Shown here piece after piece: positions 48,950 to 64,000 of a stretch of DNA of 64,000 bases. Source of the stretch: an uncultured SAR86 cluster bacterium (GTDB lineage: Bacteria; Pseudomonadota; Gammaproteobacteria; Magnimaribacterales; D2472); assembly GCA_902586925.1 (NCBI GenBank), contig CACIJE010000002.1:62001-126000 (forward strand), written 5' to 3'. Under the pieces are notes generated by a model. That model did not search any database and was not told where the DNA came from. It saw only the letters and a program-made list of their open reading frames with translations. Position numbers and translations under genes: made by a program. Position 1 is the first letter of the stretch; each line of letters starts with the position of its first letter.

Positions 48950-50065
48950 TTAAATTACTTCTGCAAGAGAGTTTAAACAGTACTCGATATTCTTTTTATT
49001 AGAGGATTGCCCCATTAGTCCAATTCTCCATACTTTTCCTGCAAGAACTCCAAGACCAGCCCCAATTTCAAGATTAAATTCATTTAAAAGTTTTTGTCTC
49101 GATTCTAAATCATTTACACCTTCTGGAATATAAATCGCGTTTAACTGAGGTAATCGATCCTCTTCTTTTACTAAAAATTCTATATTCAATTTTTCAAGAC
49201 CTTCTCGAAGTTGAAGATGATTTTGTCTGTGTCTTTTCCATGAATTTTCTAGACCTTCTTCACATAACATCACCAAAGCTTCGTGCAATCCATACAATGC
49301 ATTTATAGGTGCAGTGTGATGGTAAGATCGACCTCCTTCACCTTCCCAATATGACATGATTAAATTTAAGTCAAGAAACCAACTCTTCACTTTTGATTTT
49401 CTATTTTTAATCTTCTCCTTTGCAGCATTGCTAAAACTAATTGGTGATAAACCAGGAGACGCAGATAAGCATTTTTGTGTTCCAGAATAAATTGCATCGA
49501 TTCCCCATTCATCTACTTTTAAAGGAACTCCAACCAAACCTGTTACAGTGTCTACAATTGATAAACATCCATGATCATGTGCTAATTTAGATATAGATTC
49601 TGGATCTGTAAGAGCTCCTGTAGAAGTTTCAGCATGAACTGAAGCAACAATTTTTGCATCTTTATGTTCATTTAAGGCTGATTCAATCTTATTTAAATCT
49701 ACTTTTGTTCCCCATTCATCATCAATAACTATTGGTATTCCACCAAATCGCTCCACATTCTCTTTCATTCTTTCACCAAAAAAACCATTTTTAGCAATAA
49801 TTACCTTATCATTAGGTTCAACAAGGTTTGCAAAGCAACACTCCATTCCGGCCATCCCAGGAGCTGAAACAGCAAAAGTTAGTTCATTCTGAGTCTGAAA
49901 TGCATATTGAAGTAGCTGCTTTGTTTCGTCCATCATTTTTATAAAAACAGGATCAAGATGACCAATAGTTGGTCTAGCCATCGCATCAAGAACTCTTTCG
50001 CAAACGTCAGAAGGACCAGGGCCCATTAAAATCCTGTTTGGTGGTATAAATGAATTTGCTTCCAT
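48950..50065 (-). CDS. Class V aminotransferase (alanine/serine-glyoxylate type)
   Basis: PLP aminotransferase of 371 residues. It begins with MGPGPSDVCERVLDAMARPTIGH-type sequence (GPGPSDV and PTIGHLDP), typical of alanine-glyoxylate and serine-glyoxylate aminotransferases. HAETSTGAL and SIVDTVTGLVG bind PLP and the PLP lysine is in YSGTQKCLSASPG. It would take amino groups from alanine or serine to glyoxylate or pyruvate. The start follows 31 nt after the gamma-glutamyltransferase stop on the complement side; both genes read leftward. Confidence 0.88.
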   Translation of the reverse strand: MEANSFIPPNRILMGPGPSDVCERVLDAMARPTIGHLDPVFIKMMDETKQLLQYAFQTQNELTFAVSAPGMAGMECCFANLVEPNDKVIIAKNGFFGERMKENVERFGGIPIVIDDEWGTKVDLNKIESALNEHKDAKIVASVHAETSTGALTDPESISKLAHDHGCLSIVDTVTGLVGVPLKVDEWGIDAIYSGTQKCLSASPGLSPISFSNAAKEKIKNRKSKVKSWFLDLNLIMSYWEGEGGRSYHHTAPINALYGLHEALVMLCEEGLENSWKRHRQNHLQLREGLEKLNIEFLVKEEDRLPQLNAIYIPEGVNDLESRQKLLNEFNLEIGAGLGVLAGKVWRIGLMGQSSNKKNIEYCLNSLAEVI

Positions 50066-50096
50066 GACGATATGATACTAGATAAATATGTATTAA

Positions 50097-51794
50097 TTAA
50101 TACCCTGATGCATGTCCATCCTTTCTACTTTCTGAAGCTCCATACAATACACCATCTTTATTCATTATTGCTTGATAGCCACCAAATGCTCCTTTCATAT
50201 AATTGTCCTCATTTTTATTGACAACTTTATGCCCAATGTTCTTAATTTTAGCTATTTCATTTAGATCAAAACCATTTTCAAAAATTATGTATCCTCCATC
50301 AGTCATCTTCTCACCAGTCGGCTGAGATGATCCAACGTGTCTAAATCTTGGTGCATCACCAGCTTCTTGTAAATTCATATCAAAATCTATCAAATTTATT
50401 ACTATTTGCGCATGACCTAATGGCTGCATTGCTCCTCCCATAACACCAAAACTTACAAATGGATTACCGTTTTTTGTTATAAAAGCTGGAATAATTGTAT
50501 GGAAGGGTCTTTTTCCTCCTATTAAAGAATTGTTATGAGTTGGATCAAGATTAAACATCTCGCCTCTGTCTTGTAACATAAAACCAGAATTATTAGGAAT
50601 TACTCCTGATCCCATACCCCTGTAGTTACTTTGAATTAATGAAACCATGTTCCCAAACTTATCTGCAACAGTTAAATAAATTGTATCTCCCTCTTCAAGG
50701 ATGTTTGAATCAACTGATGTTAGGACTCTATCAAAACTGATTAGTTTATTTCTCTTCTCCGAATACTTTTTTGAAATCAAATAATCTACTGGCACTTTAG
50801 CAAAATTCATATCTGCATAATATTTAGCTCTGTCCTCAAATGCTAATTTTTTAGCCTCGGTAAAAAGATGGATATATTCAGCGCTATAAAAACCTAATTT
50901 TTTAATATCATAATTTTCTAATATATTTAATATTTGTAATGCAGCAATTCCCTGTCCATTAGGCGGAAGTTCCCAAATATCATATCCTCTATAATTCGTA
51001 GAAACAGGATCTATCCATTCGGGTTTGAATTCAGAAAGATCACTCAAAGTGAAATATCCACCTTGCGAATTAATTGACTCTACTATATTTTTTGCAATAC
51101 TGCCTTTATAAAAATCTGTACCGTAAGATTTTGCTATAAGCCTGTAATCATTTGCTAATAATTTATTTTTAAAAATTTCTCCTTTTAATGGAGTTTTACC
51201 ATTAGGCATCCAAATCTTCTTAAAATTAGGATAATCTTTAAATACTTCTGAAGATCTATTTAAATAGTATGCTATTAACTCAGTAACTGGGAATCCATTT
51301 TCAGCATAATTAATTGCATCATTAAATAACAATTCAAAATTTAAGCTTCCAAATTTTGAATGAAGAGCCTTCCATCCTGCCACAGCTCCTGGAACAGTAA
51401 CAGGTAATGGTCCATAAGGAGGTATTATAGTAATCCCTTTCGCTTTTAACTTATCTATAGAAATATTCTTTGGTGCAGGGCCAGATGAGTTTAAACCGTG
51501 TAGTTTTTTATCATCTGCACTCCAAACAATTGCAAATAAATCTCCTCCAATTCCACACCCAGTTGGTTCAACAAGTCCTAAAACGGCATTTGCTGCAATT
51601 GCAGCATCAATGGCATTTCCACCAGCTTTGAGAATTGAAATAGCAGTTTGTGTAGCAAGTGGATGACTTGTTGCTGCCATTCCATTGGTGGCAATTACTT
51701 CTGATCTGCTAGCAAATTCAAGACCAGTTATTCTGTCATATCCATTTGTAAAATTTGATATTATTAATATGATTGCAATATATAAGAATTTCAT
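50097..51794 (-). CDS. ggt: Secreted gamma-glutamyltransferase family protein
   Basis: Ntn-hydrolase proenzyme that cleaves gamma-glutamyl bonds such as those of glutathione. A signal peptide covers about residues 1-18. The N-terminal ATSHPLATQTAISILKAGGNAIDAAIA is split here as ATSHPLATQ and GGNAIDAAIA. The autocleavage site is GDTIYLTVAD with Thr371 as nucleophile; E. coli Ggt has TTHxS at this place, and the TIYLT variant occurs in the GGT-like branch. GSGVIPNNSGFMLQDRGEMF and GVMGGAMQPLGHAQ are conserved. It is periplasmic and may recover cysteine and glutamate from glutathione or peptides. Confidence 0.88.
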   Translation of the reverse strand: MKFLYIAIILIISNFTNGYDRITGLEFASRSEVIATNGMAATSHPLATQTAISILKAGGNAIDAAIAANAVLGLVEPTGCGIGGDLFAIVWSADDKKLHGLNSSGPAPKNISIDKLKAKGITIIPPYGPLPVTVPGAVAGWKALHSKFGSLNFELLFNDAINYAENGFPVTELIAYYLNRSSEVFKDYPNFKKIWMPNGKTPLKGEIFKNKLLANDYRLIAKSYGTDFYKGSIAKNIVESINSQGGYFTLSDLSEFKPEWIDPVSTNYRGYDIWELPPNGQGIAALQILNILENYDIKKLGFYSAEYIHLFTEAKKLAFEDRAKYYADMNFAKVPVDYLISKKYSEKRNKLISFDRVLTSVDSNILEEGDTIYLTVADKFGNMVSLIQSNYRGMGSGVIPNNSGFMLQDRGEMFNLDPTHNNSLIGGKRPFHTIIPAFITKNGNPFVSFGVMGGAMQPLGHAQIVINLIDFDMNLQEAGDAPRFRHVGSSQPTGEKMTDGGYIIFENGFDLNEIAKIKNIGHKVVNKNEDNYMKGAFGGYQAIMNKDGVLYGASESRKDGHASGY

Positions 51795-51818
51795 TATTGA
51801 TTAATATATACTCATGTC

Positions 51819-52151
51819 ATGAAGATGTTAATAGGTATTTTTATTATGTCCTTCAGCTTTAATCTTTCAGCTGAATTTGATAATAAATGTTCAGTACTTA
51901 TTACCTTAAGATTTCAAAATAATAGTGATGCATATCAAGAGGCAATAGATAAGATTAATCAGTGTAATAAATATGATATTTTATCTGTGACAAGTTTTTT
52001 AGAACTTTCAATAAGCAAAGTTTATATTACAGATATCATCCAAACATATTGTATGTTTAATCACGAAATAATTACATTATTGGATAATAAAACATCGAAT
52101 CTCAGCTGTGTTCACAGAGGCAAAGGAAGATTAGAAAGAAAATTTGATTAA
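51819..52151 (+). CDS. Small secreted protein, unknown
   Basis: 110 residues with a signal peptide (1 to about 18, ending LSA before EFDNKC). The mature part has four cysteines (near residues 23, 48, 72 and 93), likely two disulfides. I do not recognise any family. It is divergent from ggt across 24 nt, so the two may share a promoter region. It has no Shine-Dalgarno. The ORF is convincing mainly because of the signal peptide and Cys pattern. Confidence 0.5.
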   Translation: MKMLIGIFIMSFSFNLSAEFDNKCSVLITLRFQNNSDAYQEAIDKINQCNKYDILSVTSFLELSISKVYITDIIQTYCMFNHEIITLLDNKTSNLSCVHRGKGRLERKFD

Positions 52152-52264
52152 AAATTTACGTTTTTGTCACAAAATCTATACAAAGCTTTTCAAAAAATTA
52201 ATACAAATGTATATAAAGTTTGTTTAAATAAAATCTTTATAATATGTATTTAATACTTAAAACA

Positions 52265-52301
52265 AAGGCATAGCTACTTTATCCCCTAGTTGCTATGCCT
52301 T
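52265..52301 (-). terminator. Hairpin terminator after the MAPEG gene
   Basis: AAGGCATAGC (52265-52274) pairs exactly with GCTATGCCTT (52292-52301) around a 17-base loop. On the minus strand the stem is followed by TTTGTTTT. It lies ten nt past the MAPEG stop codon. The remaining part of the 159-nt gap (52152-52264) is AT-rich and shows nothing else. Confidence 0.65.
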
Positions 52302-52310
52302 AAACATTTT

Positions 52311-52691
52311 CTATGCAGTAATATTGAGAGCCATCATTACTAAAACGATTATCGAAGGCACCCAAATTAATGGCCTAATAATAGGAAATCTGTATAGATT
52401 AATTATGTGTCCAATCAAATAGACTATTCTTAATCCAAACCATATTTGAGCTAAAGCTAAGTTATCAACCCCTTGAGCAATTGATAGGACTGAGACTGGT
52501 AAAAAAATAAATAGTGATTGTCTTAAGTTATCACCAGCAACGATCATCCTTTTTGATAAATCAGATAATTTTGAAAGGTCTCCATCAGAAATTGTGAATT
52601 GTATAAAAGGAACCTTATGTAAAGAAAACGACATTACAAAAAATAAATGAGCTGTATAAAAAAGTACAACACAAATTAATAAATCAACCAT
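52311..52691 (-). CDS. MAPEG-family membrane protein
   Basis: 126-residue, four-helix membrane protein of the MAPEG superfamily (membrane-associated proteins in eicosanoid and glutathione metabolism). RMIVAGDNLRQSLFIFLPV corresponds to the conserved R-x-x-x-A-x-x-N region, and LAQIWFGLRIVYLIGHIIN to the third helix with its Arg/Tyr. Known members bind glutathione. A strong Shine-Dalgarno (AGGGAGGT) precedes the ATG and a hairpin terminator follows. It is a fifth glutathione-related gene in this window besides the GSTs and Ggt, though not adjacent to the GSTs. Confidence 0.78.
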   Translation of the reverse strand: MVDLLICVVLFYTAHLFFVMSFSLHKVPFIQFTISDGDLSKLSDLSKRMIVAGDNLRQSLFIFLPVSVLSIAQGVDNLALAQIWFGLRIVYLIGHIINLYRFPIIRPLIWVPSIIVLVMMALNITA

Positions 52692-52725: not shown

Positions 52726-54729
52726 CTATAAGTTAATTAAAGCAATATCTTCTGGTTTAAGCAATTCCTCATCAAGATTAGATACTAGTTTTTTGAGATT
52801 TTTTGCATACGGTTTCCATCTATCCATACCAGATTTATTTATTGGTTTTCTAACTTGTTCTGAACTTGCAGTTCTAACAGATCTATCAGTTTCATAAAAT
52901 GTTATACATGACTCCTCAAAAGGCAGCCCCAAGAAATCAAGCATTCTTATAACTTGTCCCTCAAGATCATCAATGATATCTTCATTATTAACTCTGAGAA
53001 TTTTATTTGGGATTACTTTATCCCAATGATTCATTAATTTAACGTACATATTGTAATAACTGCCTGCTTCTTCAAGTCCATATGTAAATTCCTGACCTTG
53101 AGCAAACAATTGTTTGAACATACTAAAACAACAATCTAATGGGTATCTTCTGGCATCAATAATTTTTGCGTTTGGAAGAATTAAGTGAATTAAACCAATG
53201 TGACGAAAATTATTTGGCATTTTATCAGTAAATCTTGGTGCTCCTTTTCGATGCATTTGAGTGTCTTCAATAAATATTTTTCCCATATCAATTCTTTTCT
53301 GATTAGAGAGATTTTTCATACTTTTTGGATAATTTCCATCATTTCCGTATTTATAATCTCCTCTTAAACTTTGTGCCATTGATAAAATATTTGGAAGTTC
53401 AAGGGTTCCATCAATTTTAGAATGAGATGCTAAAATTTGTTCTATTAGAGTAGAACCTGCTCTAGGAAGGCCTAAAATAAAAATTGGATCACTTGCATCA
53501 TGCCCTCCAGTACCAAGTTTTTCAAAAAATATCTCATCGCAAGTATCGATTTGAGATTGAAGTTCTTTGTCCATTTTCTCAATAGAATATTTACTTTGAT
53601 TTCTTTTAATTTTATTACCAGCATTGAAATGATAAAAAGCTTCTTCATATTCACCAATAATTTCACATCCTTGAGCTAATGCAAAATGAAAATAAGCTTT
53701 ATCTTTAAGTGTTAAATCAACTCTCTCAAGTTGTTTTCTCATAATGTCTAGCTCATCCACTGAAAACTTATAAGTCTTTAAGTTTGATAATGAAAAAAAT
53801 GCTTCGCCGTGGTCCTGTTTTACTTTATATGCAGATCTATAACTATCAATTGCTTCTTTGGTTTTTCCTAGGGTCTTTTGAGCATGTCCTTTAGAAGTAT
53901 GAATACTAAAATTGAATGGATTTTTCACTAGAATTTTTTCAAATAGTTTTACCGCTTCTTCATGATTGCCATTTTGCATTATTTCACTGGCTTTCTGAGC
54001 TTGATATGAAAGGTTATCAGGATACATTTCACATAATATATTTACCTGTTCTAATGTTTCAGCAAACTTTTGTTTTTTTCTTAGAATCATTGCATATTTC
54101 ATTCTAAGATCACCATTTTTAGGTTTAAACTTGACTGCATTTTTTAATAAAAATTCAGCATCGTCAAAATAGCCAAGCCTATCTGCTATTTGAGATAATA
54201 GAGACATTGCATATGTATGAGTTGGATTTTTCTTTAGGAACTCCCTACATTTTGTTTCAGCAAGTCCTAATCTTCCTTCATTTAAGATTTGACTAATATA
54301 TAGCAGATTTGCAGGTATTGATTTTAATGTTTTAATTTGGTCTAGTGCATGATCTGCAGCAGGCTTGTTTTTAGTCTTAGTAAAATAATTATATAAAGAG
54401 TTCCATGATGATAATAGTGCTGGGTTCAGCTCACACGCTTGTCTATAATAAGTAATTGAAGAATTTTCATTACCAGAATCTCTGTTTAAATGTCCAAGTT
54501 CTTGATAAGCACGTCCCATATCAGGACTTATTGATAGTACAGTCTCAAGGTATTTTTGTGAATCTTTATAATTTTTAAGATATCTGGAACATACTGCTGC
54601 CAAATATAAGCTATCAATATGTTGAGGATCTTTTGATAGATTACCTTCTAATAAACTAAGTGCCTCTACAAACCTGTGGTCCTTAATTGATTGTGAGGCT
54701 CTTGATACGTCTAATTTAGATTGAGTCAT
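52726..54729 (-). CDS. TPR-sulfotransferase (copy 1)
   Basis: 667-residue protein with about ten N-terminal TPR units (residues 1 to about 370) and a C-terminal sulfotransferase domain. The PAPS 5'-phosphosulfate loop is FILGLPRAGSTLIEQIL and the 3'-phosphate site DARRYPLDCCFSMFKQLF. DKMPNNFRHIGLIHLILP and VRTASSEQVRKPI are shared with the second copy at 60858. There is no signal peptide, so it is cytoplasmic. The acceptor may be a protein bound by the TPRs, a sugar or a lipid. It lies 86 nt below a TonB-dependent receptor gene, separated by a terminator hairpin. Confidence 0.85.
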   Translation of the reverse strand: MTQSKLDVSRASQSIKDHRFVEALSLLEGNLSKDPQHIDSLYLAAVCSRYLKNYKDSQKYLETVLSISPDMGRAYQELGHLNRDSGNENSSITYYRQACELNPALLSSWNSLYNYFTKTKNKPAADHALDQIKTLKSIPANLLYISQILNEGRLGLAETKCREFLKKNPTHTYAMSLLSQIADRLGYFDDAEFLLKNAVKFKPKNGDLRMKYAMILRKKQKFAETLEQVNILCEMYPDNLSYQAQKASEIMQNGNHEEAVKLFEKILVKNPFNFSIHTSKGHAQKTLGKTKEAIDSYRSAYKVKQDHGEAFFSLSNLKTYKFSVDELDIMRKQLERVDLTLKDKAYFHFALAQGCEIIGEYEEAFYHFNAGNKIKRNQSKYSIEKMDKELQSQIDTCDEIFFEKLGTGGHDASDPIFILGLPRAGSTLIEQILASHSKIDGTLELPNILSMAQSLRGDYKYGNDGNYPKSMKNLSNQKRIDMGKIFIEDTQMHRKGAPRFTDKMPNNFRHIGLIHLILPNAKIIDARRYPLDCCFSMFKQLFAQGQEFTYGLEEAGSYYNMYVKLMNHWDKVIPNKILRVNNEDIIDDLEGQVIRMLDFLGLPFEESCITFYETDRSVRTASSEQVRKPINKSGMDRWKPYAKNLKKLVSNLDEELLKPEDIALINL

Positions 54730-54771
54730 ACATTGTTATATATTTTAGATTAAAACTTGTTTCAGTACATT

Positions 54772-54796
54772 AAAAAAGGGAGCCAAAGCTCCCTTT
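54772..54796 (-). terminator. Rho-independent terminator after TonB-dependent receptor 1
   Basis: AAAGGGAGC (54775-54783) pairs with GCTCCCTTT (54788-54796) around CAAA. On the minus strand the stem is followed by TTTTTT. It lies 19 nt beyond the receptor stop codon and before the TPR-sulfotransferase start, so the receptor transcript mostly ends here. Confidence 0.88.
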
Positions 54797-54815
54797 ATAA
54801 GTAAAGAATGAAAGA

Positions 54816-57404
54816 TTAGAAATTCTTCTTAACTCTAATGCCAACAGTCAAAGGCTTAATAACTGTTACACGCTGTCTATCAAACACAAAGTTATTGCTT
54901 ATTTCAGCTCTTTTGTCTGTAACATTATCAATATAAAGCTCAGCAACAACATCATCATTAGACATCCCAACTCTTATGTCGAGGTAGCTATATGAATCTT
55001 GTGTAGCCTTGTTTGGCTCCATGATATCCGAAGTTGATTCTCCAGAGTAGACCATTTGAATTTGTCCATGTCCTACATATCCATTTGACATACCAAACTC
55101 TTGTCTTATTCTGATATTACCTTGATATTCAGGTGCAAATGCCATATTTTCTCCAACAATAACATCATTGGTAGGTAACAATTTTTTTGTTATTTCGCTA
55201 TCTAAGAATGAAAATGCGCCTGCCACTGAAAGGCCATCAATATCTGTAAGATATGTAAAGTCACCCTCTAAACCTCGGATGGTTCCATCAGCTGCATTAT
55301 CTGAGAAGAACAAGTTAACATTCATAGCCGGATCTAAAATTGTACTTTGAAGACCTTCTACGTCAACATTAAAGATACTTCCGTTAAGTCTTAATTGTCC
55401 ATCAAGTAGAATAGTTTTCCAACCAAACTCCATATTCGTAATTTCATCAGACTCAACTTCTGGTTTAACTCTATAAGCATCGGTACCAGCACCAACTGGT
55501 CTATTTAAAAGACCAGGTCGGAAACCTTCTGACCAAGTCACATAATACATTACATCTTCTTTAGGGCGCCAAGAATAAGTTACTTTACCTATAACACCAT
55601 CAGTTTTTGCTTTGTCAGGGTAACCATTTGGATTTCCTGGTGCATACTGAACAGATAAGTTTGTTCCATATCTTTGTTCATCAGGGTTACCAAAACCATT
55701 ACCAAATGATGAGTTAGCGCTACCTTCAAAATCAACTTCGATATCGTACCATCTAGCACCAACAGTAAGTTCCGTTGTATCACTCATAGCAATATTTAAC
55801 TCACCAAAAACACCTTTTTGACTGTCAGTTCTTCTTATATCATTAAAGAAAATCACTGGTTCTGGAAAAGGACCAGCTGAGTACCAACCTGCGCCTGCAT
55901 TACATGCAGATTTACCACTACAAGTAGTTCCTGTAACAGCAACATCTGTTAATGCGTAGTTTGAAGCGTATTCGATATCATTCATTAGAGAACCAGGATA
56001 GGTGAATAAATTCAACTCTTTTAGTTCTGTGTCACTCTTAAATAACCCTGCTGTCAATGACATAGTGTCATTGATGGGAGCATTTACACGTACCTCATGA
56101 GTTTCAACACTTGTATCAGTAGTAGAGTCTACAAATAGATCAACTGAACCACATGTTCCAAATGGAGCACCTGTAGGTGAAAATGTTGTATAAGTTACGT
56201 AATAATCACAAATATAATATGGGATCCAATCACCAACAAATAAATAGTCGGTGTAATCAACAACTTGATTAGTTTCTCTATCTGTATATGCACCAGCATA
56301 CACAACCTCAAGATCACCAATTGAACCTTCTAATGTTAAACTCATATTAGAATATTCATCATCAATATAATCATCGGAATATCTTTGTATCTCAAGGTCG
56401 CCAAGACCAGGATCTGTGAAAAACACACCATCTGCTTCAATTGTTTGTTCAGCGTATACTAGAGTAGCCTTAAAGTTTTCACCAATATCTTGAGCTAGAG
56501 TAGAACGGAAGCCCACATACTCAGTACCATTAACATTATCTTCTTCAAGAGCACTTGTTGGAGTCATTATAACTCCAGAAAGATCAGCTCCACCTTGTCT
56601 ACCTTCTCTATCAACAGAAACAGGTAATCCATTATCTCTAACAGTTCCAGCTGCTCTAAAACTACCTGAAGATGATGCATCAAGGGTACCTGGTACTTGA
56701 TCAATGTAACCACCTCTTCTATCTTTATATCCAACAAATCTCCATGTAGTGCTATCACTAATAGGAATATTTGTCATAAATTCAGCTTTTGTTCCAGTGT
56801 CTCCTTCAGGCATAAACCTTGTTTCAAACTCTACATTACTCTCAAAAACACCTGGTTTTGGCTTATTTGTAATTAACCTTACAACACCAGCTTGTGAACT
56901 AGCTCCAAATAGAGTACCTTGTGGACCAGCTAAAACCTCAATTCTATTTATATCAGCTGCATAAACATCTAAATTTCTTCCTGGTTGGGCTAGAGGTTGT
57001 TCGTCCAGATAAAAACCAACATTTGGTGCTAAACCTGCAACACCTGCAGTTGTTAAGTTCGGTGTAGTGGAAGCAAGACCTCTAATGTAAATAGTACTTT
57101 GACCTGGACCTGAACCACCGGCAGTTACTCCCGGAAGTTGGAGAAGATAATCTTCGAATACATTAATGCCTCTTTCCTCAAGAGTCTCTTCATTTAATGC
57201 ACTGACTGACAATGGTACATCTTGAAGACTTTCAGTTTTTTTTCGTGCTGTTACAACTACTTCTTCAATAGTTGCATTTTGAGCTGCAATATAACCACTG
57301 AATACAGATGCATTGATTACAGCAAATGTAGACAAAGATGGTAGGATTGCAGGAATTATAGAAGGCGAAATATCCTTCCGAAATTTATTCAATTCTTTTA
57401 ACAT
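54816..57404 (-). CDS. TonB-dependent receptor (copy 1)
   Basis: Outer-membrane receptor of 862 residues. The leader runs to about residue 42 (FSGYIAAQ), followed by a TonB box-like IEEVVVTARKK. The plug domain follows (SLQDVPLSVSALNEETLEERG, YIRGLAS, VGFYLDEQP, INRIEVLAGPQGTLFG and GVVRLITNKP). The rest is the 22-strand barrel, ending with a C-terminal Phe (VKKNF). The pattern is that of the large marine gammaproteobacterial receptor family, in which ligands range from siderophores to oligosaccharides; none can be assigned. A good Shine-Dalgarno (AGGGGA) precedes the ATG. Confidence 0.93.
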   Translation of the reverse strand: MLKELNKFRKDISPSIIPAILPSLSTFAVINASVFSGYIAAQNATIEEVVVTARKKTESLQDVPLSVSALNEETLEERGINVFEDYLLQLPGVTAGGSGPGQSTIYIRGLASTTPNLTTAGVAGLAPNVGFYLDEQPLAQPGRNLDVYAADINRIEVLAGPQGTLFGASSQAGVVRLITNKPKPGVFESNVEFETRFMPEGDTGTKAEFMTNIPISDSTTWRFVGYKDRRGGYIDQVPGTLDASSSGSFRAAGTVRDNGLPVSVDREGRQGGADLSGVIMTPTSALEEDNVNGTEYVGFRSTLAQDIGENFKATLVYAEQTIEADGVFFTDPGLGDLEIQRYSDDYIDDEYSNMSLTLEGSIGDLEVVYAGAYTDRETNQVVDYTDYLFVGDWIPYYICDYYVTYTTFSPTGAPFGTCGSVDLFVDSTTDTSVETHEVRVNAPINDTMSLTAGLFKSDTELKELNLFTYPGSLMNDIEYASNYALTDVAVTGTTCSGKSACNAGAGWYSAGPFPEPVIFFNDIRRTDSQKGVFGELNIAMSDTTELTVGARWYDIEVDFEGSANSSFGNGFGNPDEQRYGTNLSVQYAPGNPNGYPDKAKTDGVIGKVTYSWRPKEDVMYYVTWSEGFRPGLLNRPVGAGTDAYRVKPEVESDEITNMEFGWKTILLDGQLRLNGSIFNVDVEGLQSTILDPAMNVNLFFSDNAADGTIRGLEGDFTYLTDIDGLSVAGAFSFLDSEITKKLLPTNDVIVGENMAFAPEYQGNIRIRQEFGMSNGYVGHGQIQMVYSGESTSDIMEPNKATQDSYSYLDIRVGMSNDDVVAELYIDNVTDKRAEISNNFVFDRQRVTVIKPLTVGIRVKKNF

Positions 57405-57554
57405 AGCTTCCCCTAATTAAAAATTTAATACCATAAGGTTACTAAATTAGGTAAAACTATGCAAATTTGGTTAACATTTAATTATGAATGTTTGGTGTAA
57501 TATAGATATTTAAAGTTAATTATGTTTCACTAGATTTAATCTAAACCCACAAAA
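57405..57554. promoter_or_regulatory. Divergent region, TonB-dependent receptor 1 / BCCT transporter
   Basis: This 150-nt gap must contain the promoters of the receptor (minus) and the BCCT transporter (plus). It is AT-rich with no clear operator, Fur box or hairpin that I can see. The receptor has a ribosome-binding site; the transporter ATG has none visible. Confidence 0.35.
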
Positions 57555-59045
57555 ATGAATAATTTAAGCAAACCACGATTTATTTTTTCTATTTTATTAA
57601 TATCAATAATAACTGCGGTTGTTTCCTTAAATTCAGACATATCAGAGTCATTTTTTCTTGATTTGCAGGCGGTTCTCTCTAAATATTTAGGTTGGATGAT
57701 CATTGTTCTTGCAAATGGGTTTGTCATTTTTGCGATTTACCTAATTTTTACTAAATATAAAGATATAAGACTTGGTGGTAAAAATGCAAAACCAACTTAT
57801 TCATACGTTAACTGGATTGCTATGCTATTTAGTGCTGGTTTAGGTATTGGTCTTCTATTTTATGGAGTTGCTGAGCCTATTATGCATCTTAACTCCTATC
57901 CTGGAATGATTGATGGTGATATTACTTTTAATTCAGGAAAGGCAATTGGTTTGGCGAATCTTCATTGGGGCCTTCATGGTTGGGCAATTTATTCTCTTTT
58001 AGGACTATGTTTTGCATTTGCCTCATATAATAAAAAACTTCCATTCAGAGTCAGCTCTTTATTAGGTCCGACTATTTCCAATAACAGACCATTAGCAGTT
58101 TTAATTGATATTATTGCAATTCTTACAACAATTTTTGGTGTAACTACTTCTCTTGGACTAGGTACGATTCAAATTAGCTCGGGTTTAGACTATGTTTTCT
58201 CAGTTCCAGAAAGTTTTAGTAATCAGATTATTATTATTGCGATTATAACTTTGATTGGTTTAATTAGTGTTTGTTTAGGTTTAGATAAAGGCATTAAAAG
58301 GTTGTCTCAAGTAAATATGATTCTTGCTACTTCCTTAATGTTATTTATTTTTATATTTGGACCAACAGTATTTATTATTAATGCACTAGTTCAAAACTTT
58401 GGTTCATATCTAAATACCGTTATTGAATCTGCTACTTGGACAGAAGCCTATAGCTCAACTTCTTGGCAGGATGGTTGGACTTTATTCTACTATACATGGT
58501 GGTTTGCTTGGGCACCGTTTGTATCATTATTTATTGCAAGAATTTCTTATGGTAGATCTATTAAAGAATTTATTATTGGAGTGCTGTTTGTGCCATCAAT
58601 AATTGTTTTTTTCTGGATGGGAATTTTTGGTAATGCTGGTATTTATCAAGTAATCAATGAAACTAGTCAAATTAATGAGATTGTAAATAATAATTATACA
58701 GTTGCTCTATTCGCATTACTTGAGAGTTATCCGGCATCAATATTAGTATCAGGTCTTACCCTTGTGATAATTGTTACTTTTTTTGTAACATCTTCTGACT
58801 CAGGAGCATTAGTGGCCTCCATGTTATCATCGAAAAGTCATATCGGAATTCATGATGATTCGCCAATTTTATCCAGAGTCAGTTGGGCTATATTTTTGGG
58901 TATTATTGCTGCTGTTCTTTTATATAAAGGTGGCTTGACAGCACTTCAAACCTCAGTTGTGATTTTTGGAGTTCCATTTTCTATTATTGTCGTTTTTGCA
59001 ATTAAAGAGTTTTACAAGTCTCTTGAAAGTGAATTAAAGCTCTAA
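57555..59045 (+). CDS. BCCT-family transporter (betaine/choline/carnitine type)
   Basis: Twelve-helix secondary transporter for compatible-solute-like quaternary ammonium or sulfonium compounds. FSAGLGIGLLFYGVAEP is the family signature in helix three, GVTTSLGLGTIQI lies in helix five, and WTLFYYTWWFAWAPFVSLFIARISYGRS is the aromatic box region (given here in two parts: FYYTWWFAWAP and FIARISYGR). Length (496) has short tails, so osmotic-sensing C-terminal extensions as in BetP are absent. Likely substrates in seawater are glycine betaine or DMSP; this is inferred from the family. Confidence 0.9.
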   Translation: MNNLSKPRFIFSILLISIITAVVSLNSDISESFFLDLQAVLSKYLGWMIIVLANGFVIFAIYLIFTKYKDIRLGGKNAKPTYSYVNWIAMLFSAGLGIGLLFYGVAEPIMHLNSYPGMIDGDITFNSGKAIGLANLHWGLHGWAIYSLLGLCFAFASYNKKLPFRVSSLLGPTISNNRPLAVLIDIIAILTTIFGVTTSLGLGTIQISSGLDYVFSVPESFSNQIIIIAIITLIGLISVCLGLDKGIKRLSQVNMILATSLMLFIFIFGPTVFIINALVQNFGSYLNTVIESATWTEAYSSTSWQDGWTLFYYTWWFAWAPFVSLFIARISYGRSIKEFIIGVLFVPSIIVFFWMGIFGNAGIYQVINETSQINEIVNNNYTVALFALLESYPASILVSGLTLVIIVTFFVTSSDSGALVASMLSSKSHIGIHDDSPILSRVSWAIFLGIIAAVLLYKGGLTALQTSVVIFGVPFSIIVVFAIKEFYKSLESELKL

Positions 59046-59191
59046 TTTATTTCGTCGTCTATTTTTTTTAACTCATCTTCATCCATCTCATCTTCAAAAA
59101 TTAAATCGTTTTTTTTATTCTGACTGAGTTTTTTAGACACTATAAGTGCTGCAACAATAATTATTAATATAATTCCGATTTGGTATAGCAT
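59042..59191 (-). CDS. Small acidic single-pass membrane protein
   Basis: A 49-residue frame from ATG 59191 to TAG 59042. Residues 4-19 form a hydrophobic helix (QIGIILIIIVAALIVS), followed by a Lys-rich stretch and a strongly acidic tail (FEDEMDEDELKKIDDEIN). This layout is typical of real short membrane proteins and unlikely by chance in a gap. It overlaps the BCCT stop by four nt on the other strand. No Shine-Dalgarno and no recognised family, so it remains a prediction. Confidence 0.5.
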   Translation of the reverse strand: MLYQIGIILIIIVAALIVSKKLSQNKKNDLIFEDEMDEDELKKIDDEIN

Positions 59192-59237
59192 TTTAACAAT
59201 ATATAATAAGTAATACTTATATTAACATTTGCAACAA

Positions 59238-59789
59238 ATGGATGCTTTAAAAAATATTCTTAATAGAGTTTCTGCAAGACAACTATCAGAACCGTATCCA
59301 AATAAAAAAGAAATGGATATTGTTTATAAAGCTGCGTTAAGGGCACCCGATCATGCGTGGTTAAAACCATCATGTTTTATTGAAGTAAAAAACGATGGAC
59401 TTGATAAGCTTTCAAAAATATTTTTAGAATTTGGCAAGTCTTGTTCCGATATTTCTGAACTTGTTTTAAAAAAATATCAAAATGCTCCATATAGAGCGCC
59501 TATGATAGTAATACTTGTGAATACATATAAAGACCATCCTAAAGTACCAGCCATTGAACAAAAGCTCTCAACTGCTACTGCAGCCCAAAACATAATGCTT
59601 GCTCTGAATGCTATGAATTATGCTTGTATATGGCGAACTGGAAAATTAGCCTTCAATAAGACTGTACAAAAATCTTTAGGATTACATGACAATCAAGAGA
59701 TTTTAGGATACTTGTATATAGGAACTGAGATTGGTACTAAGAAAAAAATACCATCACTTGATATTGATGATTTTGTTTCATATTTATAA
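59238..59789 (+). CDS. Nitroreductase family protein, YdjA-like
   Basis: FMN-dependent NAD(P)H oxidoreductase of the small nitroreductase group. I place the start at ATG 59238, giving MDALKNILNRVSARQLSEPYP as in YdjA-type proteins (MDAL...RxS); a TTG three codons upstream is less likely. ALRAPDHAWLKPSCF is the FMN-binding loop and AAQNIMLALNAMNYACIWRTG the conserved helix and C-terminal FMN site. The natural substrate is unknown. Its end overlaps the convergent DUF4345-like gene by six nt. Confidence 0.85.
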   Translation: MDALKNILNRVSARQLSEPYPNKKEMDIVYKAALRAPDHAWLKPSCFIEVKNDGLDKLSKIFLEFGKSCSDISELVLKKYQNAPYRAPMIVILVNTYKDHPKVPAIEQKLSTATAAQNIMLALNAMNYACIWRTGKLAFNKTVQKSLGLHDNQEILGYLYIGTEIGTKKKIPSLDIDDFVSYL

Positions 59790-60161
59790 AGAGTTTGATT
59801 TATAAAAAAAAGCAGACGTCCATGCGATCACTGTAAATAAAATTTCTGCAATCAATGAGCTAATAGCTATATCAGCATCATAATTAATAGATGCTAGAAT
59901 ATTAAATAATCCAGCTAACATATATATTATTCCAGCGCTAAATATCCATTGGTATTGCTTGGTAAAAAAAGAAATGAAACACATTGTTGATGTTCCTAAA
60001 AAAAATGCAGTAAAGTCTCTTATTTGTGTATTCCTGCCCAGTCCATCTAGATAGGTCATATTAAGTGTCTCTGCAGCTATTTCGGGTGAAAGAATCCATT
60101 GGATCGATATCATCCCAAGAACCAAGCCAAGTAACAACGATAATAAATTAGCAATTTTCAT
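59784..60161 (-). CDS. Four-TM membrane protein, DUF4345-like
   Basis: 125 residues with four membrane helices (about 5-25, 50-65, 70-90 and 100-120). ILSPEIAAETLNMTYLDGLGRNTQIRDFTAFFLG resembles the first loop of DUF4345-type proteins (quoted here only as GRNTQIRDFTAFFLG). Function is unknown. Its ATG overlaps the S51 peptidase stop by four nt (ATGA). Confidence 0.55.
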   Translation of the reverse strand: MKIANLLSLLLGLVLGMISIQWILSPEIAAETLNMTYLDGLGRNTQIRDFTAFFLGTSTMCFISFFTKQYQWIFSAGIIYMLAGLFNILASINYDADIAISSLIAEILFTVIAWTSAFFYKSNSL

Positions 60162-60865
60162 ATAAGTATTTTATTTACTCCCTTAAGTTCATTTTGAATA
60201 ATTTTATTATTTTTGCAAGTAACAGAGTAAGCACTATTATTTTTACCAAAACTAACAGAATATACAGGAGTATCGTTGATTAAATGTAGAGCGCAAAACC
60301 CCTCAATAGCAATACACTCATCGATCTTATTATTAATTAATATATCCTTAACAAAAGGAATTCTCTCTGGCTCTTCATCATAATGAGGGCAACAAATTCC
60401 ATTAACAAACCCAAGACAGGGTAAGATTGATTGATGATCTTTCCACGAATCTGTAATGCCTTTTTCAAACCAGCAAATTGCTCCTGCACTGACACCACTC
60501 ATAATAGTTCCATCATTGTATGCATTTTTAAGAATTTTATCTAAGTCCCATTCTCTCCAAACTGCTAGCATACTTTTAGTATTTCCTCCTCCAACAAATA
60601 TAATGTCTTGTTTATTAATATGTTCCTCCAATTTTATTGTTCTTTTAAAAAAATCAATATGTGATGTTATGCAGCCAAGTTTATCAAATGCTTTATAAAA
60701 GTTTTCTATGTATCCATCATCATCACCGGTAGCTGTTGGAATAAAACATATTGATGGATTTGTGTTTTCTGATTGATTTATAATATATTTTTCAATCTTT
60801 AAATCTTTTATTTCTCTACCGAAACCCCCGCCACCAATTGCTATAATTTGTTTTTTATTATTCAT
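60158..60865 (-). CDS. Peptidase family S51 (dipeptidase E / cyanophycinase-like)
   Basis: 235-residue serine peptidase. FVGGGNTKSMLAVW is the conserved strand-turn, and the nucleophile elbow is MSGVSAGAICWF with Ser in GVSAG. GFVNGICCPHYDEEPER holds the His. PepE-type enzymes cleave Asp-X dipeptides. It overlaps the upstream TPR-sulfotransferase gene by eight nt and the downstream four-TM gene by four nt, so the three form one transcript. Confidence 0.85.
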   Translation of the reverse strand: MNNKKQIIAIGGGGFGREIKDLKIEKYIINQSENTNPSICFIPTATGDDDGYIENFYKAFDKLGCITSHIDFFKRTIKLEEHINKQDIIFVGGGNTKSMLAVWREWDLDKILKNAYNDGTIMSGVSAGAICWFEKGITDSWKDHQSILPCLGFVNGICCPHYDEEPERIPFVKDILINNKIDECIAIEGFCALHLINDTPVYSVSFGKNNSAYSVTCKNNKIIQNELKGVNKILI

Positions 60866-62456
60866 TATTTAAAACAATATCTTTAAGAGGCTTAAGGTAC
60901 TCTTCATAATTTTTCCATTGTCCAATTCCTTTTGAATATATAGGTTGTCTAACTTGTTCTGAGCTTGGAGTTCTTACCGCTCTCTTATTTTTGTAAAAAT
61001 GAAAGCAATCATCTTCAATATCAAAACCACAGAATTTTATTAATTTGGTTATTTCATTTTCAGTATCACTGACCATATTTTCATATTTAACCATATGAAC
61101 TTTTCCTGGCAGCACTTTATCCCAATGATCCATTAATGAGATATATTCTAGATAGTAATTAGCTATTCTGTCTAAACTATAACTAAATCCCTGACCTGAA
61201 CCAAAAAGTTGTTTGTAATTGCTAAAACAACAATCCATTGGGTTTCTTCTGGCGTCGATTATTTTTGCGTTTGGCAATATTAGATGTATAAGCCCAATAT
61301 GAAAAAAATTGTTAGGCATTTTATCAATGAAGTAAGGTTTTGAAGTGTTCCTTTGATCAAGTGTATTATTAATGTAGGCATCACCCATTTTTTTAAATTC
61401 CTCTTTTTCAATATCAAGAATTGCTGATGGATATTGTGAGTCATCAGAAGACTTTCTTTTTTTCGAAATTTTTCTTGAAAGTGCAATTATATTTTGGTGT
61501 TCTGTAGTTCCCTCTATTAAAGAATGAGATGAAAGGATTTGTTCAATTAGGGTAGATCCTGATCTTGGTAGTCCAACAACAAATATTGGATCATTTAAGT
61601 CGGTTCCAACATCTGAAAATTTCCTAAAAAATTGTTTAGTGAAGAAATTTTTTATATTTTGACATTCGATTGCAAATTCTTTTACATTCCATAAAACCTC
61701 CTTACTTTTTACCTGATTACCTTTCATATAGGCGGCTATGGAATTCTTAAAATTTTTTCTATCCTCTTCTGCTTTTCCAAGTGTAAAAAGTAAGTGATAG
61801 TAGTCATGTCTTTTACAATTGCTGTCACTTAATAAATCTTTAATAGTATTAAAATCTTTATCAGAAAAAATGTATGTTTTTAGATTAGCTAATCCCCAAT
61901 ATGCTTCACCATAGCCCTCTTTGCACTTTATTGCATCAAGATAAGCACTTATTGCCTCCTCTATTTGACCATTTGCCCTAAGAGTATGTCCATATTGCAA
62001 ATAAAACTGACCATTATTGAGTGTATTTGAGCTGAACCTTTCTTTTATTTCTTTAAATAATATAAGCGCTTCTTCATGTTTATTAGCTTGTGCAAGATTC
62101 ACCGCCTTTAAATTTAAGTAATGGATATTATTTGGCTCTTTTTTTAATAATATTTCAAGTTGCTTCAATGACTCAAATGGTAATTGTCTAGCATGAAGTA
62201 AATTAGCATAACTTAATCTTGCTTCATCATAATCTGGCTCAATATCAAGAGCTCTTGTTAATAAATTACCAGCATCAAAATATGCTCTTTGTCTTATTCC
62301 TATATCAGCAAGTAATTTCATTGCATTGACATCCAAGGGATTATCAAAAAGATATTCTCTTAGTAATTTTTCAGCTTTGTGTTGTTTATTAGAAGCTAGG
62401 AGAACTGATGCTTCGTAAAGCTTTTCAGGAATAATTTTTTTTAAATCTGATGACAT
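60858..62456 (-). CDS. TPR-sulfotransferase (copy 2)
   Basis: 532-residue paralogue of the protein at 52726. TPR units cover residues 1 to about 250, fewer than in copy 1. The sulfotransferase domain has FVVGLPRSGSTLIEQIL (PAPS loop) and DARRNPMDCCFSNYKQLF (3'-phosphate site), then VRTPSSEQVRQPI. DKMPNNFFHIGLIHLILPNAK differs from copy 1 at one position only. It lies 40 nt below the second TonB-dependent receptor gene with a hairpin between them. It is cytoplasmic; acceptor unknown. Confidence 0.85.
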   Translation of the reverse strand: MSSDLKKIIPEKLYEASVLLASNKQHKAEKLLREYLFDNPLDVNAMKLLADIGIRQRAYFDAGNLLTRALDIEPDYDEARLSYANLLHARQLPFESLKQLEILLKKEPNNIHYLNLKAVNLAQANKHEEALILFKEIKERFSSNTLNNGQFYLQYGHTLRANGQIEEAISAYLDAIKCKEGYGEAYWGLANLKTYIFSDKDFNTIKDLLSDSNCKRHDYYHLLFTLGKAEEDRKNFKNSIAAYMKGNQVKSKEVLWNVKEFAIECQNIKNFFTKQFFRKFSDVGTDLNDPIFVVGLPRSGSTLIEQILSSHSLIEGTTEHQNIIALSRKISKKRKSSDDSQYPSAILDIEKEEFKKMGDAYINNTLDQRNTSKPYFIDKMPNNFFHIGLIHLILPNAKIIDARRNPMDCCFSNYKQLFGSGQGFSYSLDRIANYYLEYISLMDHWDKVLPGKVHMVKYENMVSDTENEITKLIKFCGFDIEDDCFHFYKNKRAVRTPSSEQVRQPIYSKGIGQWKNYEEYLKPLKDIVLNNE

Positions 62457-62458
62457 AT

Positions 62459-62489
62459 ATAAAAGGCTACATAAATGTAGCCTTTTATA
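62459..62489 (-). terminator. Hairpin terminator after TonB-dependent receptor 2
   Basis: AAAAGGCTACA (62461-62471) pairs exactly with TGTAGCCTTTT (62476-62486) around TAAA. On the minus strand the stem ends in TTTT and lies ten nt beyond the receptor stop codon. It is placed as the terminator of receptor 1 is, between receptor and sulfotransferase. Confidence 0.75.
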
Positions 62490-62496
62490 TTATCGA

Positions 62497-64000
62497 TTAG
62501 TTACTGTAATTCCAAGTAAATTTGATACCAACAGTTTGCGGTCTGTTTACTGTATGAAGTATATGAGTATTAACGCCATATCCATCTTCATTATTGATAT
62601 ACAAGTCTGCAAGCTCATCAAAAACATTATCTATGAACATACCAACAGACAAACTTTCATTGAGCATCTTTGTAAAATTAATATTTGTTAATTTATAACT
62701 GCCTTGATTTACTCTATCTGATACTGTTAAGTCATTCCACATTTCATCAACTGAAACATGATTAATTTGCATAGAACTTGTATCATCAAAGCTATAATCA
62801 ATCATAAAGTTATACTTAACGTCAGGTGTTAATGGCAAGTCTGTCCCACTTGGTGCTGATAGACTGCCTCGGTAAAAGTAGTCTTCCTCTAATTCAGCTT
62901 CGTTACTAGCATAGCTCATTGATAATGTTAATTTATCGTTAACTATATGCTTTAGATCAAACTCATAGCCTTTACTTGATGCTTTACCAACATTATCAAT
63001 TAAAGCAAGTTTTGAAAGAGTTACATCATAAAACCCTAATTGCATGTCATCCCAATCCATGTCATATAAAGCAGCATTCAATCTTGTTTTCCCATTATTG
63101 AATGTTGATTTAAAGCCAACTTCGGTGCTTGTTAGATAATCTGGTTTATAAGTCGCACCAATTTGGGTGGATCTGTTTATTCCACCTGGTCTATACCCCT
63201 CTGATACAGTGGTATAAATTAATGTATCTGGGGTTAGTTGGTAAGCCAGATTAACTTTACTAACACTACCTGAGCCACTCATTTGACCATTCACATTCTC
63301 TGGTGGAGCACTTAAACTTGAATATGCGCCAACTGCAGGAACGGTAGGTTCTGGTGAATAAAAGACGCTTCCAGAATATCCACTTAGAGCGTATTCATAA
63401 TCAAAATTCCTGTAACCAAGTGTTAACTCAAGCGCATCAGTAATTTGATAATAGACTTCACCAAAAAAAGCCTCGTCTTCATCCATTCGAATCTGGTCTG
63501 TTTGATACCAAGCATTTTCACTACCTGGAACAGCAGCACCGGATGGGAGATCTGCAATTCGCCATCTCGTATTGTAATCAGTTTCTAGTTCACCAAAAAA
63601 TGCGCCAACTATCCAATTTAATTTTTCATTTTCTTTAGAAGATAATCTTATTTCAGTATGGCTCGTATCTACCGTTGTCTCTTTGTTGTAATTCTGACTT
63701 GGATCAACACAAGCATAGAAATAATATGTATAACATGAATAGTAAGCTTCAACATATGGTGAACTTAGTGAATAATGTGAATAATCTGAATGTGTTTCAA
63801 AATCTTTTTCAACACTAGATGTTGCAAAGTTAAGATCTGCAAAACCTAAATCTCCACTTACAGATAAAGAAAATCTTGTGAAATCATCATCATTAGAATC
63901 CTCAGTGAATCTACTTGTATTATAGTCTCCTAAAGCAGGATCATAATCCCATGAACCTTTTGATTCCATTGTTTGACCCATCACATTTGCGTCAATGGTC
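62497..64000 (-). CDS. TonB-dependent receptor (copy 2), N terminus beyond window
   Basis: The C-terminal 500 residues or so of an outer-membrane receptor barrel. The frame is open to the window edge and continues upstream of the GTG at 63984, so that codon is not the start and the plug domain is missing only because of the cut. Barrel motifs include LNWIVGAFFGE, LTLGYRNFDYEYAL, TVSEGYRPGGINRS and STEVGFKSTF. It ends VGIKFTWNYSN with MFIDNVFDELADLY before it, the same end pattern as copy 1 (YIDNVTDKRAE). Ligand unknown. Confidence 0.92.
   Translation of the reverse strand, partial: TIDANVMGQTMESKGSWDYDPALGDYNTSRFTEDSNDDDFTRFSLSVSGDLGFADLNFATSSVEKDFETHSDYSHYSLSSPYVEAYYSCYTYYFYACVDPSQNYNKETTVDTSHTEIRLSSKENEKLNWIVGAFFGELETDYNTRWRIADLPSGAAVPGSENAWYQTDQIRMDEDEAFFGEVYYQITDALELTLGYRNFDYEYALSGYSGSVFYSPEPTVPAVGAYSSLSAPPENVNGQMSGSGSVSKVNLAYQLTPDTLIYTTVSEGYRPGGINRSTQIGATYKPDYLTSTEVGFKSTFNNGKTRLNAALYDMDWDDMQLGFYDVTLSKLALIDNVGKASSKGYEFDLKHIVNDKLTLSMSYASNEAELEEDYFYRGSLSAPSGTDLPLTPDVKYNFMIDYSFDDTSSMQINHVSVDEMWNDLTVSDRVNQGSYKLTNINFTKMLNESLSVGMFIDNVFDELADLYINNEDGYGVNTHILHTVNRPQTVGIKFTWNYSN

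Follow-up and report, generated by a model that had tools for sequence, protein, structure and literature searches.

What does a sulfotransferase do behind an outer membrane receptor? The question is raised by a 64,000-nucleotide stretch of DNA from an uncultured SAR86 bacterium (Gammaproteobacteria; contig CACIJE010000002.1, positions 62,001 to 126,000), called the window below. Two modules are encoded on the minus strand at its right end, and in both of them a gene for a sulfotransferase fused to tetratricopeptide repeats (TPR-ST) lies directly 3' of a same-strand gene for a TonB-dependent receptor (TBDR). A first reading of the letters of the window, referred to here as the original prediction, took receptor and sulfotransferase to be a functional pair, and proposed to examine this by counting adjacency across genomes, comparing the trees of both families, and relating TPR length to receptor class. 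All three analyses were performed. The pairing of TPR-ST and TBDR is not due to chance, and a conserved module of the two is near certain. As to its function, we see an even chance that the TPR-ST sulfates a loop of its partner receptor before export, for the binding of methylated amines.

Receptor and TPR-ST Form a Conserved Module

Adjacency was counted in three sets of loci. The SAR86 set comprised 81 loci, namely 79 regions around long-frame PF13469 matches among those listed and the two loci of the window's own genome; PF13469 matches were obtained in at least 87 of the 151 genomes of the order. Of the 97 TPR-ST genes in these loci, 61 lie directly behind a same-strand TBDR and 30 have the same-strand TBDR beyond a divergent BCCT transporter gene; four of the others are at a locus edge, and in the last two an extra or split frame intervenes. 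Clustering without preset families recovered one neighbor family in 76 of the 81 loci, in several gene orders, and its scanned members are BCCT transporters. The named-record set comprised the 80 top-ranking loci among at least 566 confirmed relatives, 17 of the 80 being SAR86; the closest of these loci, L179 among them, place the window's organism in SAR86. Here 81 of 87 TPR-STs stand directly behind a TBDR, and a BCCT gene is found within about four genes of 66 of these 81. Two of the remaining enzymes are at an edge. Of the other four, one is in L215, where the locus ends past the BCCT gene, two are second copies in L241, and one is in L248, in which genes for RNase R and an rRNA methylase precede the enzyme and BCCT genes.

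In the reverse direction, a search with the receptor gave 24 close receptors (E ≤ 1e-100) in 22 of 398 Pseudomonadota genomes, the window's own included. All 24 adjoin a same-strand TPR-ST, with the receptor upstream in 22 cases and downstream in two; the sulfotransferase domain was visible in 13 of the short loci, and extending the DNA revealed it in the remaining 11 of 11. A BCCT gene lies in the flank of about 1.5 kb in 15 of the 24. Together, the linkage counts of the three sets rule out chance or gene density as the cause of the pairing. Within the window's own genome, the profile search yielded three PF13469 and 13 PF00593 matches, and both TPR-fused sulfotransferases follow a TBDR. No TBDR was present within the surrounding 15 kb of the third PF13469 protein, a non-TPR protein of 372 aa.

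Receptor and enzyme also vary together. Distance matrices for 147 receptor-enzyme pairs, a redundant set in which some genomes occur in two collections, gave a Mantel r of 0.92, the largest value in 999 permutations being 0.15; for the SAR86 pairs alone r was 0.97. In 121 of the 147 pairs, the enzyme belonging to the nearest receptor ranked first to third by enzyme distance. Part of this agreement is also expected from plain common descent. TPR length follows receptor class, with SAR86 enzymes of 523-533 aa accompanying receptors of 751-776 aa and an overall Spearman coefficient of 0.44. Adjacency, matrix agreement, and the relation of TPR length to receptor class thus lend the proposed functional pair strong support.

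A FastTree tree of 91 receptors, in which support is near 0 at some inner nodes, groups all 16 linked representatives in one clade (support 0.994). The same clade takes in 10 of the 13 receptors found near distant TPR-STs, an enzyme-less lineage described below, and one of 61 unlinked receptors. Because the linked receptors share one clade, the linkage is old and maintained and not the product of many independent events.

The Enzyme Resembles Protein-Tyrosine Sulfotransferases

TPR-ST 1 (positions 52726-54729, minus strand, 667 aa) matches PF13469 and TPR models. A TPR superhelix spans approximately residues 9-396, and the sulfotransferase domain starts at about residue 410. The best sequence match of this domain among solved structures was human protein-tyrosine sulfotransferase 1 (TPST1; E = 3e-12), and the best SULT match was far behind (E = 2e-4). 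The structural model had a mean predicted local distance difference test (pLDDT) score of 88.5. Fold comparison gave Z scores of 21.4-22.1 for TPST1 and TPST2, with TPST1 at Z 22.1 and a root mean square deviation of 2.9 over 243 aligned residues. In a Foldseek search with the whole model, the top matches were O-GlcNAc transferase (OGT) and SPINDLY, and the TPR part is OGT-like. The protein is not a member of the OGT family (GT41); its catalytic domain is PF13469, and a glycosyltransferase domain is lacking. The suggestion that the TPRs may choose the acceptor agrees with the OGT-like superhelix found in the structure search.

Residues R423, E444, K503, and S536 are conserved in TPR-ST 1 and invariant in alignments of 13 and of 34 enzymes. 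Their TPST1 counterparts in the alignment are the Arg of the loop binding 3'-phosphoadenosine 5'-phosphosulfate (PAPS), the second Glu of the GEE motif, a Lys, and a Ser. A three-residue rule, stated in the accessible part of PMC6637879, asks for an Arg and a Ser that bind PAPS and, between the two, a catalytic Glu or His. Judged by the alignment, R423, E444, and S536 conform to this rule as catalytic TPST residues. No signal peptide was seen when the TPR-ST sequence was read by eye, and the enzyme should be cytosolic for this reason.

A Conserved Tyrosine Loop Is the Candidate Target

Receptor 1 (54816-57404, minus strand, 862 aa) matches both PF07715 and PF00593, the plug and β-barrel of a TBDR, and its fold matches are TBDR structures. 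Its candidate target loop is encoded at 56151-56258 (minus strand) and covers residues 383-418 (DYTDYLFVGDWIPYYICDYYVTY...C), including Y384, Y387, Cys399, and Cys418. In the receptor model (pLDDT 82.7), residues 384-423 link two long strands at the end of the barrel that bears the long loops. We take this end of a TBDR barrel to face the cell exterior, and the loop is therefore predicted to lie outside the cell. Only one 15-residue stretch of the barrel is more conserved than this loop. In the linked receptors, Tyr occupies positions 384 and 387 without exception (147 of 147 and 23 of 23); these sets are redundant in that the window receptor was entered twice and many members are near-identical. 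When representatives at 50% identity were compared, all 16 linked receptors carried the motif [DE]YxxY, usually in the form Asp-Tyr-x-x-Tyr, against 8 of the 61 unlinked ones (Fisher 5e-11). Asp immediately N-terminal of the accepted Tyr is typical of most good metazoan TPST substrates, according to the accessible part of PMC9372746.

The receptors are not simply rich in tyrosine throughout. This explanation was discarded for class A, where Tyr makes up 5.0% of residues versus 4.9% in unlinked SAR86 receptors; therefore, the local cluster alone differs there. A SAR86 sub-group, class B (20 receptors), is richer overall (7.3%) and carries 10-15 Tyr in 25 residues, often interspersed with Asp or Glu.

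A close receptor was searched for in 16 SAR86 genomes without a listed TPR-ST, and two genomes were positive. In one of them (G015), the receptor is intact and enzyme-less and the loop reads DYSGF, the second Tyr being changed to Phe. Two further genomes of the same genus encode receptors that are 99% identical and have DYSGF too, and none of the three genomes is among the PF13469-positive genomes listed for the order. This lineage, the only close intact enzyme-less one found, nests inside the linked clade. The other positive genome (G086) shows a module in decay, with the enzyme absent, the receptor cut C-terminally, and the BCCT gene intact. It was not counted as a natural knock-out because one deletion could explain its state.

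At the N-terminus, the leader before a TonB-box-like motif, which was located in only part of the receptor sequences, had a median length of 44 in linked and 30 in unlinked SAR86 receptors, and reached up to 39 in named-genome controls. A longer leader could slow receptor export.

Distant TPR-STs Often Neighbor Surface Barrels

Eighteen distant loci in named genomes were hand-picked from those listed as long open frames new to the set, and some of the listed ones were passed over. A TBDR is the direct neighbor in 10 of them, one gene away in L327, and four genes away in L332; no TBDR was near the TPR-ST in the other six of these 18. Tyr clustering in the receptors near distant TPR-STs was slightly raised (p 0.015).

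Among plasmids, 13 of 20 matching records were examined (H7, H9, and five unlisted ones were left out), and their annotated gene tables are incomplete. The records label the family "tetratricopeptide repeat-containing sulfotransferase," and these distant enzymes share 24-40% identity. A barrel or autotransporter gene is at most two listed genes away from the TPR-ST in 9 of 11 annotated records, and in both of the two unannotated records a TBDR adjoins the enzyme. TBDRs are near the TPR-STs of Asticcacaulis, Novosphingobium, Pseudoalteromonas, and Komagataeibacter (two genes away); autotransporters are near those of Enterobacter 638, Kluyvera, Thalassospira, and Pacificitalea; and a porin is near that of Cereibacter. 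Neither a barrel nor an autotransporter was nearby in the listed genes of the Methylovirgula and Roseibium plasmids. On the Asticcacaulis plasmid (L402), a TBDR, a Sulfotransfer_2 protein, an aspartyl/asparaginyl hydroxylase, and the TPR-ST follow in a row, possibly representing several protein-modifying enzymes behind one receptor. The Enterobacter (L404) and Kluyvera (L411) plasmids have the order TPR-ST, family 8 glycosyltransferase, autotransporter.

A tyrosine rule valid for every TPR-ST found no support, since the motif occurs in only 4 of 13 distant neighbors and the autotransporters have no clusters. These observations suggest surface barrels as the general partners of TPR-STs and tyrosine as a target that is not general. 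A broader reading can be offered tentatively. TPR-STs would be widespread modifiers of bacterial surface β-barrels, each dedicated through its TPRs to the adjacent barrel (TBDRs, and in distant branches autotransporters), and the product of the SAR86-type enzymes would be a sulfotyrosine cation cage, a loop that holds methylated amines as the protein counterpart of sulfonated calixarenes.

Ligand, Intergenic Hairpin, and Sulfate Donor

The third conserved member of the module is encoded divergently from receptor 1 (57555-59045, plus strand) and is a BCCT transporter of the betaine/choline/trimethylamine type. Its nearest solved structures are a trimethylamine transporter, followed by choline and betaine transporters. 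PF02028 was above the cut-off for this copy and for two diverged BCCT copies. Further genes in other module loci encode a homocysteine S-methyltransferase, a carboxylesterase, an FAO_M-type oxidoreductase, and a formate-tetrahydrofolate ligase. Because of the BCCT relatives and these accompanying genes, methylated amines are our guess for the ligand. Sulfonated aromatic cages bind quaternary amines. In Erythrobacteraceae, TBDR, BCCT, and sulfotransferase clusters show equal co-occurrence (0.81) with halotolerance (PMC10040529); in the accessible part of that paper, they are separate clusters among many, and no connection is drawn between them.

The gap between receptor 1 and TPR-ST 1 contains a terminator-like hairpin (54775-54796, minus strand), detected in the hairpin scan. 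Among SAR86 gaps with a length of 25-150 nt, 53 of 60 contained a hairpin with a T run, as did 20 of 47 gaps in other loci; a control of 20 mononucleotide shuffles gave means of 0.1 and 0.5, respectively. The conserved hairpin may act by attenuation, so that little enzyme is made per receptor.

APS kinase (adenosine 5'-phosphosulfate kinase, PF01583) gave a full-length match in one of 151 genomes and weak, partial matches in 79. APS-kinase-like genes were considered as the PAPS source and are not used as support, 79 of the 80 matches being short and weak. Two such proteins read within loci have about 136 aa (L172:4439-5990 and L175:5515-5925); the one in L172 (family f2) is encoded beside a non-TPR sulfotransferase. 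The own-genome match (G000:C1:156411-156659) lies within a polysaccharide gene cluster.

The Second Module and Neighboring Genes

Coordinates and profile matches confirmed that the receptor, hairpin, and TPR-sulfotransferase arrangement occurs twice in the window, as originally described, and the enzyme motifs quoted as shared, among them DKMPNNF and VRT-SSEQVR-PI, are present. TPR-ST 2 (60858-62456, minus strand, 532 aa) has a shorter TPR part and likewise matches PF13469 and TPR models. TBDR 2 is encoded from 62497 to 64000 on the minus strand, and its N-terminal part extends past the window edge; PF00593 was matched in the window part, and the protein has 769 aa in the genome. Its Tyr-rich loop is encoded at 63688-63789 (minus strand; SDYSHYSLSSPYVEAYYSCYTYYFYACVDPSQNY). 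A hairpin is present in the second gap as well, a 10-bp hairpin at 62461-62486 (minus strand), separated by 4 nt from the ATG that starts enzyme 2. This hairpin has its T run inside the stem; it was read from the sequence and is absent from both hairpin scans, the strict one included.

Between the two receptor-enzyme pairs are the genes for the BCCT transporter, a nitroreductase-family protein, a 125-aa open reading frame (ORF), and an S51 peptidase. The left neighbors (48950-52691) encode a class V aminotransferase, a γ-glutamyltranspeptidase, a 110-aa ORF, and a MAPEG-family protein.

Discussion

From the computed conservation of module, loop, and hairpin, and from the computed fold, we infer the following scheme. 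The module would be an uptake system with a dedicated protein-modifying enzyme. The TPR-ST would be a cytosolic protein-tyrosine sulfotransferase whose TPR superhelix holds the newly made partner receptor, as OGT does its protein substrates, while PAPS supplies the sulfate that the catalytic domain attaches to the tyrosines of one loop, those of Asp-Tyr-x-x-Tyr and their neighbors. Sulfation would precede export of the receptor and its folding into the outer membrane. Once sulfated, the loop, aromatic and bracketed by Cys, would form an anionic cage at the surface that traps a methylated amine or a cation of similar kind; import of this ligand by the receptor would draw on TonB energy, the BCCT transporter would take it across the inner membrane, and the intergenic hairpin would hold the enzyme level below that of the receptor. 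In many other bacteria the pair stays together while the receptor keeps the same two outer-loop tyrosines, so that sulfation of the receptor itself may be the role of the enzyme, and we regard the receptor as the sulfated target with about even confidence. The original interpretation, a functional pair in which sulfate is perhaps added to a polymer, lipid, or protein of the surface, is thus borne out in part. The evidence favors a protein, most simply the receptor, as the acceptor, which is unproven; the BCCT transporter and the receptor tyrosine motif had been missed.

Each part of this scheme has a counterpart in known systems. Human TPST1 and TPST2 are the nearest solved relatives in sequence (TPST1 first) and in fold, the Arg, Glu, Lys, and Ser align, and in the candidate target an Asp precedes the Tyr. 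In contrast, the human enzymes are membrane-anchored in the Golgi (PMC9372746, accessible part), and no TPR part occurs in the aligned domain. RaxST of Xanthomonas is likewise bacterial, cytosolic, and TPST-like, it is encoded beside its exported protein substrate RaxX, and sulfation precedes secretion, as described in the accessible parts of PMC6637879 and PMC9372746. It differs in that the substrate is a small peptide using a type I system, whereas here a TPR superhelix and a large outer membrane receptor as neighbor are found. Neither a RaxX peptide nor a RaxAB exporter was present among the scanned neighbors, where no search aimed at them was made. OGT and SPINDLY also join a TPR superhelix to a protein-modifying catalytic domain, which is a glycosyltransferase in their case and PF13469 in the TPR-STs. 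CurM and the olefin-synthase sulfotransferase domains come close (E = 7e-12 and 2e-9; Z 17.3 and 17.8), but they are parts of polyketide-type assembly lines, without a TPR part and without a receptor neighbor. Uptake loci that combine a TBDR with an inner membrane transporter have the adjoining transporter gene in common with the present module, here a BCCT gene. We know of no such locus with a dedicated receptor-modifying enzyme.

Several observations weigh against sulfation of the receptor loop. The polyketide-pathway sulfotransferase CurM nearly equals TPST1 in sequence score, with a lower fold score. Since a single deep clade of the receptor tree holds essentially all the linked receptors, the motif counts are not independent events. 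The enzyme-less case is one lineage of three genomes with receptors that are 99% identical. In Woeseia (L325), a TPR-ST is directly paired with a receptor that has neither the first Tyr nor the cluster and keeps the second Tyr. Conversely, a receptor of the own genome (L132:2645-5008, on contig 3 outside the window, loosely within the linked clade) has a cluster of 7 Tyr in 25 residues and no adjacent enzyme; an enzyme from another locus might act on it. Near distant TPR-STs, [DE]YxxY occurs in 4 of 13 receptors versus 8 of 61 unlinked ones (Fisher 0.13), and the autotransporters beside such enzymes are without a Tyr cluster. The PAPS supply in SAR86 is unproven: PF01507 was unmatched in the own genome and had no match above the cut-off in 12 of 14 SAR86 genomes, other ATP sulfurylases not being searched. 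Finally, the loop tyrosines could bind the ligand unmodified.

The last point is part of an alternative in which the enzyme belongs to the same uptake module and acts on a surface glycan, a lipid, or the imported small molecule. Aromatic side chains suffice to cage quaternary amines, PF13469 also includes enzymes for other acceptors, CurM scores almost as high as TPST1, and distant TPR-STs in Enterobacter 638, Kluyvera, and Komagataeibacter adjoin glycosyltransferase genes while their barrels are without Tyr clusters. We nevertheless find this alternative rather unlikely: the receptor is the constant neighbor (24 of 24, whereas 15 of these have BCCT in the near flank), the fold is nearest to TPST, the TPR superhelix is like that of the protein-modifying OGT, and the one enzyme-less lineage has lost the second Tyr. 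Sulfation of the receptor might instead serve evasion, hiding the loop from phages or bacteriocins and having no role in uptake. TBDRs often serve as phage and colicin receptors, and the extreme Tyr clusters of one sub-group would fit, but loops under phage pressure usually vary, whereas only one 15-residue stretch of the barrel surpasses this one in conservation, and the BCCT partner indicates uptake; we consider evasion as the purpose improbable.

There is also little probability that the TPR-ST modifies another exported protein, or helps export or folding without sulfate transfer, and stands beside the receptor through shared regulation. TPR proteins are often chaperone-like, and the unproven PAPS supply would suit a helper; a dead enzyme, however, would have no need for the PAPS-loop Arg or for the Glu, Lys, and Ser, all of which are invariant across the alignment of 34 enzymes. 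Least probable by far is a chance neighborhood or passive operon inheritance with no joint function. A single ancestral linkage would be enough as its start, given the one deep clade, yet the linkage persists in both Alpha- and Gammaproteobacteria, among sequences that share <50% identity and under several gene orders.

The case of bacterial tyrosine sulfation known to us is RaxST/RaxX. A 2022 review describes bacterial TPST genes as sparse (PMC9372746, accessible part). Literature searches in open-licence PMC papers found no work on sulfated TBDRs, and in the accessible part of PMC12494485 "peptidyl-tyrosine sulfation" occurs as a COG label in a table. If the TPR-ST does sulfate its partner receptor, this would be a new bacterial means of tuning uptake, and an uptake route common among marine and sphingomonad bacteria would include an unrecognized post-translational step. 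It would bear on ligand prediction, phage sensitivity, and proteomics, and the TPR-ST family gains a directly testable substrate.

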